Below, in pieces: positions 13,617 to 29,605 of a DNA stretch of 64,000 nt. Where the stretch lies: positions 2,666,001 to 2,730,000 of the forward strand of contig NZ_CP054587.1 of assembly GCF_002025255.2 (NCBI RefSeq), written 5' to 3'. The stretch is from Halolamina sp. CBA1230 (GTDB lineage: Archaea; Halobacteriota; Halobacteria; Halobacteriales; Haloferacaceae). A model generated the notes under the pieces. That model ran no database searches. It was not told the DNA's origin and saw only the letters and a list, made by a program, of their open reading frames with translations. How positions within the stretch are numbered: position 1 is the first letter of the stretch; every line of letters starts with the position of its first letter. Position numbers and translations under genes: made by a program.

Positions 13617-14093
13617 CTACCCATACGTGGTGGCCGTCGGGTGAAAAGGTGCGCGGATGGCGGTTGTTCGCCGTGGGTAGCGGTGTGGGGAGATTGTCGA
13701 ATGGCGGTGCGGTGGCGCGAAGCGTCGGCAGGGCGAGACCGAAGGTCTCGCTGGCCGTGCGGCGCGCGATCAGGCGCGCCGCACGACGCCTCCGTGCGCC
13801 GACCGAGCGCGAGGGATGAGCGAACGACGTGAGCGAATCGGTTGGGGAGGCTCGGGGGCTGTACGGGCGGGTGGGACTGAAAGGGGCTGTGCGCTCGGGG
13901 AAGCACGGCGTTGACGAGAGCGAAGCTCTCGTCTGCCAACCAGAAATCTCCGATTTCTGGTGACGACGCAAGGCACCGCAACGAAGTGAGGAGCGCAGCG
14001 AGCCGCGCGAGCCGAGCGCACAGGGGCTTTCACGGTGTTCGTCACGACGATCTTCGTCGAAGCGATATCTGCAGTAAGCCAGTCTCTATTTCC
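13617..14093. other. Hairpin-rich non-coding block between tyrA and the M24 peptidase gene
   Basis: No believable gene lies in these 477 bases. Instead there are four perfect short inverted repeats. GCGAGACC at 13733-13740 pairs with 13744-13751 around a GAA loop. A 12-bp stem at 13756-13767 pairs with 13774-13785 around six bases. The other two, at 13914-13932 and 13940-13960, form the double-hairpin element listed separately. Further GC-rich runs such as GGTGGGACTGAAAGGGGC (13870-13887) sit between them. Such blocks resemble dispersed haloarchaeal intergenic repeats, which is an inference from style rather than a database match. Confidence 0.7.
13909..13965 (+). repeat. Double-hairpin repeat element, copy 1
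   Basis: Two perfect stems occur eight bases apart. ACGAGAGC (13914-13921) pairs with GCTCTCGT (13925-13932) around GAA. CCAGAAATC (13940-13948) pairs with GATTTCTGG (13952-13960) around TCC. The segment is flanked by CGTTGACGAG on the left and TTCTGGTGAC on the right. A second copy occurs in reverse orientation at 29420-29475. It has the same spacer core (GCCAAC), the same ends and compensatory changes in both stems. Confidence 0.75.
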
Positions 14094-28931: not shown

Positions 28932-29381
28932 ATGGACTGTCGTGTGGTGTTGGAGGCGGCGGTGCCCGTCTACGACGTGGCGACGCCCGAGGCAGCGGTG
29001 GGGGCGGCGATCTCGAAGCTAGGGAAACAGCTCAACCCCGATCTCTCCTACGTGGATATCGAGCCTCGCAGCCGTCGGTCGCCCCGCGGCGCCGACCTCC
29101 CGCCGGCGACCGTCGCCGCCGGTGAGGGGCTGGTCGCGCTGGAGCTCGGGATGACGGTGTACGACGTCGAGAGCGAGGACCACGCCGTCCGGATCGCGCG
29201 CTCGGAGATCGGCAGTCGGCTGGAGGGGATCCCGCTCGAACGCCTCTCCTGTGGGCCGGTCGAGGAGGAGGAGAGCGAGTCGGCGGACGAGGAGTCGGCG
29301 GCGGAATCCGAGCCCGAGGACGGGGACGAGGAGACGCTGCTCCCCGAGTTCGAGGAGATGGTCGAACAGCATCGGGAGTAG
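28932..29381 (+). CDS. UPF0212 (DUF555) family protein
   Basis: This archaea-specific protein of 149 residues has the family opening CRVVLEAAVPVYDVATPEAA, then AISKLGKQLNPDLSYVDIEP and VALELGMTVYDVESEDHAVR. The two AVPVYDV/GMTVYDV repeats suggest an internal duplication of a small alpha/beta unit. The last ~40 residues are almost entirely acidic (EEEESESADEESAAESEPED). No function is known. It stands divergent from the nuclease gene, with 80 bp between the starts. Confidence 0.85.
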   Translation: MDCRVVLEAAVPVYDVATPEAAVGAAISKLGKQLNPDLSYVDIEPRSRRSPRGADLPPATVAAGEGLVALELGMTVYDVESEDHAVRIARSEIGSRLEGIPLERLSCGPVEEEESESADEESAAESEPEDGDEETLLPEFEEMVEQHRE

Positions 29382-29383
29382 CC

Positions 29384-29605
29384 GATCACGGCGCGTGACC
29401 TGTCGCGACCGCCGTGTCGTCACCAGAACGCGAAGCGTTCTGGTTGGCGAACGAGAACGGCAGTTCTCGTTAACGCGACCACGGAGCCCATGCCGTGATC
29501 GTGTCGTAACCGATCGCGGCGGGCGACCTGTCGCGACCTCCGTGTCGCGACTGCGGAACCTATGCCGTGATCGTGTCGTACCCCAACGGCGAGCGACCTG
29601 TCGTC
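29384..29605. repeat. Imperfect tandem repeat of about 69-72 bp, one unit interrupted
   Basis: Unit 1 is split into 29384-29419 and 29476-29508 by a 56-bp insert. Unit 2 is continuous at 29512-29580. The front halves differ at 4 of 36 positions and the back halves at few of 33. A partial third unit (GGCGAGCGACCTGTCG) ends at about 29602. Typical shared words are GACCTGTCGCGACC and ATGCCGTGATCGTGTCGTA. No gene is evident between 29382 and 29668. This is not a CRISPR array: there are too few units and no regular unique spacers. Confidence 0.8.
29420..29475 (-). repeat. Double-hairpin repeat element, copy 2, inserted in a tandem repeat unit
   Basis: The 56 bases hold CCAGAACGC/GCGTTCTGG (29423-29431 and 29435-29443, loop GAA) and ACGAGAAC/GTTCTCGT (29451-29458 and 29463-29470, loop GGCA). 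Read on the minus strand it aligns with copy 1 at 13909-13965, including the outer CGTTRACGAG and TTCTGGTGA ends. Stem bases differ between the copies but stay paired. The neighbouring repeat unit lacks these 56 bases, so the site appears in occupied and empty form side by side. Confidence 0.75.

Follow-up and report, generated by a model that had tools for sequence, protein, structure and literature searches.

The double-hairpin elements of fungal and other mitochondria consist of two adjacent hairpins and are mobile by comparative evidence. We know of no enzyme for these organellar elements, and in-frame coding use is, to our knowledge, not their hallmark. Two hairpins, a one-sided target, the lack of a long target duplication, and a target-like right end are traits of the IS200/IS605 transposons. 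The Rickettsia palindromic elements (RPEs) are bacterial mobile palindromic repeats of approximately 150 bp, which are found in frame in many unrelated genes and encode a conserved peptide (PMC10969869). The CGTC-tagged REPs, which include RPE-4 and RPE-6 and have been reported from bacterial phyla only, carry a CGTC (or TGTC/CCTC) outer tag, form mostly tag-outside dimers, are in some cases intragenic, and have no dedicated transposase; their stem measures 8-9 bp and begins with two A-T pairs, and they have a 4-5-nt loop and a CCA tail (Di Nocera et al. 2013, PMC3733652). The PATEs and short mobile repeats of the haloarchaeon Haloquadratum are transposase-free palindromic mobile repeats; the short mobile repeats are 80-110 bp in length, mostly target other mobile elements, and are stated there to be of unknown mobilisation (PMC3119063).

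In this study, a stretch of 64,000 nucleotides from Halolamina sp. CBA1230 (NZ_CP054587.1, positions 2,666,001 to 2,730,000), hereafter the window, was analysed. As judged from sequence comparison, the double-hairpin element found in it is very probably a non-autonomous mobile palindromic element of haloarchaea, which inserts beside a CG, leaves CG on both sides, and resides in frame in genes.

Occupied and empty units in the window

An array of ~70-bp units was found between an upstream gene and a small convergent ORF (Table 1). The spacing from one unit start to the next was 128 and 70-72 bp, and the extra 56 bp corresponded to the double hairpin. In unit 1, the word CCGTGTCG at 29412-29419 was followed by the element, [TCACC...GTTAA]CG, and then by CGACC from 29476; in unit 2, the same word was directly joined to CGACT. 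When unit 1 (29378-29419 plus 29474-29516) was compared with unit 2 (29506-29547 plus 29546-29588), the two parts were 88% and 84% in alignment, which bears out the sequence-only reading of a ~70-bp tandem repeat with a 56-bp double hairpin in unit 1 and none in unit 2. The repeat that hosts the element is likewise palindromic (CGATCACGGC...GCCGTGATCG around GTCGCGAC palindromes) and tandem (window 29378-29605, L044-L046), and its sequence is locus-specific in each species.

Table 1. Features of the window (positions counted from its first nucleotide)
Feature	Position	Strand	Remarks
Double-hairpin element with flanking CG	29418..29475	+	CG[TCACCAGAACGC GAA GCGTTCTGG TTGGCG AACGAGAAC GGCA GTTCTCGTTAA]CG; net insert 56 bp
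Hairpin 1	29422..29444	+	arms ACCAGAACGC / GCGTTCTGGT, loop 3 nt
Hairpin 2	29450..29471	+	arms AACGAGAAC / GTTCTCGTT, loop 4 nt
Unit 1 (occupied) of the ~70-bp tandem palindromic intergenic repeat	29378..29505	+	approximate boundaries
Unit 2 (empty)	29506..29577	+	CCGTGTCG joined to CGACT at 29540-29552; approximate boundaries
Third unit, partial	29578..29605	+	ACGGCGAGCGACCTGTCG
Upstream gene, orthology anchor	28932..29381	+	81% identity to Halolamina pelagica; stops just 5' of the array
Second double-hairpin copy of the window	13909..13965	-	within a longer palindromic repeat, GTGAAAGCCCCTG ... CAGCCCCTTTCAGTCCCAC

The orthologous intergenic region was compared in the relatives. H. pelagica (two strains) and H. 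rubra carried 3-4 complete or partial tandem units, every one of which was element-free. In G006, the nearest genome by flanking protein (87%), the orthologous unit was also empty, with CG between the flanks. The array was absent from the corresponding region of H. salifodinae. Since the relatives were empty at this locus, a gain at 29418 is favoured, and the element entered the CBA1230 lineage either by itself or as part of a composite unit.

It is improbable that every unit was once occupied and that the element was then lost stepwise. The sequence-only reading had regarded relatives with all units occupied by partially deleted elements as the sign of such a history; the units of H. pelagica, H. 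rubra, and G006 were cleanly empty instead. Furthermore, five genomes were empty at the dapA site, with an intact CG and no footprint, and two were occupied. Stepwise loss does occur elsewhere, because the Gly_transporter site of genome G005 (L199) retained a 30-bp in-frame remnant with a deletion between the hairpins. Moreover, a single simple series of gains does not account for the sites held in common (dapA, between G005 and G006; Gly_transporter, between the CBA1230 genome and G005), so loss or recombination also acts.

The chance is close to even that there was no separate insertion at 29418, and that recombination or gene conversion carried a composite repeat unit, with the element inside, from one tandem array to another. 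Five arrays of the CBA1230 genome hold the element at one and the same point of the unit. A hairpin-2 subtype, GAGAAC/GTTCTC, was common to four of the five composites and was absent from the other copies inspected; thus, the window copy may have come within a composite unit. However, each composite unit resembled the neighbours in its own array, and in a second composite type (L020, L234, and L235) the element lay reversed at the mirror point, between GTCG and CGAC, which means that units were hit more than once. Some copies travel within longer repeats, a point against the reading as a mobile element. Concerning the earlier proposal that the element can insert into, or be cleanly lost from, a defined point, the clean and defined point held; a fresh insertion in the window is uncertain, as arrival in a ready-made composite of unit plus element is about as likely.

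Anatomy, target, and putative movement of the element

The core of the element was TCA-hairpin1-TTGGC-hairpin2-CGTNRA, with 51-60 bp per unit and a commonest length of 55-57 bp. The stems were 9-10 bp, hairpin 1 opened with A-T and C-G, and the loops were mostly 3-5 nt. Folding of the element strand of the window gave two hairpins at -21.4 kcal/mol, compared with -8.7 in shuffles (z -6.6, 0/200). The left end was CGTC in most copies, and the left dinucleotide was CG in 89 of 120. The terminal match between the element ends was limited to CGTC/GACG, the remainder being two internal hairpins, in a MITE test that sought the autonomous partner via PF01797 only. Chains were found as tandem doubles and as four-hairpin versions (731364, 585045, and 1410582). 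The dapA copies of G005 (L243) and G006 (L258), located at one site, had identical arms and an inverted, flip-like hairpin loop (TTC vs GAA), and comparable loop flips were seen between other copies.

Among related copies, the paired arms changed on both sides in 19 of 20 pairs, and 251 double-changed cells were observed compared to 60 in shuffles; the alignment behind these counts was fitted to the structure, and an independent alignment agreed. This strong covariation, as well as the location of some copies directly downstream of genes, is what a structured RNA, terminator, or regulatory hairpin maintained for its function, and not mobile, would display. Nevertheless, we consider this explanation very improbable: a search of Rfam with the element gave zero matches, the sister species differed in their sites, and unrelated core genes hosted copies with open reading frames through them.

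To define the junctions, the other Halolamina genomes were searched for the flanks of the CBA1230 copies. At VOC, Gly_transporter, Nudix, 514524, 731364, 585045, 1410582, and the window locus (compared with G006), the empty allele had exactly 2 bases between the flanks, mostly CG. The occupied allele had, with few exceptions, CG on either side of the core ("CG[element]CG"). Sites 225966, 1410983, and 2823713 of the CBA1230 genome were left out of this set because of further indels near the junction. The clean junction with a two-base CG duplication at most, as read from the window, was confirmed there and found again at every other resolvable locus. The defined insertion point was matched by orthologous empty sites in the sister genomes at the window locus and eight others (dapA among them), which resolved to the same junction. 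A target duplication of 5-8 bp, suggested by single loci, was dropped once these loci were resolved to CG.

At the non-coding sites, G was present at -2 in 14 of 16 (p 2e-4) and C was enriched at -3 (p 0.009), the p values being uncorrected across positions. The right side gave weak T and A signals, which came in part from repeated flanking context. Therefore, the target looks one-sided, with the left context CGN-CG, and no signal of palindromic symmetry was found in it. The second CG may be 2 bp of duplicated target or may belong to the element as its end; a hint at duplication comes from the CA/CA flanking pairs in seven copies, some of them related, and a hint at an element-borne CG from the VOC gene, which has a GG/CG pair.

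The element very probably inserts next to a CG dinucleotide in the left context CGN-CG, with CG left on both sides. We infer that it would move as single-stranded hairpin DNA via an enzyme supplied in trans. An HUH/Y1-type transposase acting in trans is an unproven first guess for this enzyme, plausible by anatomy but unsupported. Transposases of PF01797 were present in five of seven Halolamina genomes, with ten matches in the CBA1230 genome. It is conceivable, if rather unlikely, that an IS200/IS605 transposon left the element behind as a terminal-only remnant (PATE), and that the TnpA of that family moves it 3' of a CGNCG target. The two hairpins, the one-sided context with G at -2, the lack of a long target duplication, and the right end (CGACG/TAACG), which looks like the target, are consistent with this assumption. 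However, the element was found at the ends of none of the IS200-type tnpA loci of the genus (PF01797, n=19), and genome G001 had 20 model matches with zero PF01797 match; both results also count against the main reading as a mobile element. One decayed IS200-type tnpA (L219, G000:C1:2270598-2270972) had a double-hairpin copy inside.

Copies inside protein-coding genes

A larger phenomenon, overlooked by the sequence-only reading, was the in-frame insertion of many copies into protein-coding genes.

Genic copies were located in truA, aroE, dapA, FtsJ, Nudix, HAD, and GH3 genes, among others. In an unbiased codon-usage scan of 120 copies, nine were read through, stop-free and with both flanks coding in one frame. 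All nine were antisense to the element and in one identical frame, and this bias in orientation and phase was significant versus the open alternatives (p about 2e-5). When copies with a second flank too short or too weak for the scan were counted, there were ~20 genic sites in all. The net inserts in intact ORFs that had orthologous empty genes were 51, 51, 57, 57, 108, 108, and 114 bp, all multiples of three; the two genic copies in the opposite orientation, of 53 bp (VOC) and about 157 bp (225966), were both in broken frames. The peptide insert was 19 aa (range 17-38 aa), with the consensus VDESRRLSSANQNAxRSGD and the wider form (G)(V)DES/DET..S-SANQNA-xRSGD(V). It was unmatched among solved structures and phages.

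The hosts confirmed by Pfam were Gly_transporter, PseudoU_synth_1, HAD, NUDIX, shikimate dehydrogenase, DHDPS, GH3, FtsJ, antiporter, and FAA hydrolase. In DHDPS, GH3, FtsJ, HAD, and the two-domain Gly_transporter, the Pfam match extended to either side of the insert; proteins that could be recognised as aroE, truA, Nudix, and FAH also enclosed it. Further hosts, named by sequence reading only, were S9-type peptidase, DnaG-like, shikimate kinase-like, DUF58, helicase, and 2-hydroxyacid dehydrogenase genes. The dapA insert was located between two segments that align to helices of solved DHDPS, at a turn in the secondary structure of that fold. In one HAD-family gene (L154, G000:C1:1410000-1411700), a double hairpin of 57 bp and a four-hairpin chain of 108 bp were each inserted in frame, separately from one another.

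In the CBA1230 genome, the CG lay at codon position 3|1 in 57% of cases, which explains part of the frame bias; orientation and phase still deviated. Among the six consensus frames, the one in use was polar and slightly acidic, and most others were basic, more hydrophobic, or with stops. We infer that genic copies would survive through selection on the protein product, because the antisense frame, with CG at the codon boundary, encodes a loop that is polar, slightly acidic, and free of stops. We tentatively suggest, as a possibility somewhat short of probable, that a mobile hairpin shaped for harmless translation, with CG at the codon boundary and a stop-free polar antisense loop, spreads through essential genes (dapA, aroE, truA, DnaG-like, and FtsJ) and has repeatedly lengthened core proteins class-wide, with an enzyme not yet recognised.

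Dispersal and comparison with known systems

A covariance model built on 24 copies was used for the genome, family, and phylum scans. The CBA1230 genome had ~50 distinct copies, almost all of which were chromosomal, and related copies were spread through this genome and the genus Halolamina. Within the family, 109 of 119 genomes gave matches. In a phylum-wide sample of 148 genomes, 19 were matched, that of CBA1230 included; all 19 were within the order (10 in other families), and there were zero matches outside it. Plasmid matches of the encoded peptide were all haloarchaeal. Since plasmids of model haloarchaea carry copies (Halobacterium salinarum NRC-1 pNRC200, Natronomonas pharaonis PL131, and Haloferax mediterranei pHME132), laboratory tests are feasible.

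A tnpB-like gene contained one plasmid peptide match in its 3' part, where it formed an insert and not the end of the gene. The longer palindromic repeat with an embedded element (GTGAAAGCCCCTG...CAGCCCCTTTCAGTCCCAC) occurred in several haloarchaeal genera (L262-L268, L276, and L278), mostly with the 55-bp form. Another dispersed repeat of the CBA1230 genome (CCACTTGTGACCGCAG...GAGTCCCCACCCCTCCCCCCGCG), with ~15 copies (L133-L150), bore the CATCATCAGAA subtype of the element.

In-frame gene-invading palindromes were previously reported from Rickettsia and some bacterial REPs, and can now be extended to archaea, across a whole order with model genera included; no report of an archaeal one was found in the open-access literature. 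Several occupied and empty pairs define the insertion site to the base, and the conserved peptide is searchable in proteomes. The mover of CGTC-type palindromes, the translation of the inserts, and the way in which new loops join core enzymes are thereby made testable.

Compared with the PATEs of IS200/IS605, which share their ends with a TnpA-bearing element, no such sharing was seen at the 19 PF01797 loci. The element resembled the CGTC-tagged REPs in the CGTC tag at one end of most copies, the tag-outside dimers, the intragenic copies, and the lack of a dedicated transposase (PF01797 alone tested). However, its stems were 9-10 bp with A-T in the first pair of hairpin 1 only, a CCA tail appeared only when the shared TTGGC linker was read in reverse, and the CG of the tag was the duplicated dinucleotide. 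The two-hairpin architecture and the insertion polymorphism were like those of the mitochondrial double-hairpin elements, a likeness in the way of working. By description, the archaeal repeats that come closest are the PATEs and short mobile repeats of Haloquadratum (PMC3119063); the in-frame gene insertion seen here is not mentioned in the passages on these repeats, of which the short mobile ones are 80-110 bp long. In habit, the element is like the RPEs, with which it shares the in-frame insertion in functional genes and a conserved encoded peptide; unlike these ~150-bp bacterial repeats, it is archaeal, 51-60 bp per unit, composed of two separate hairpins, and inserted at a single-CG target.
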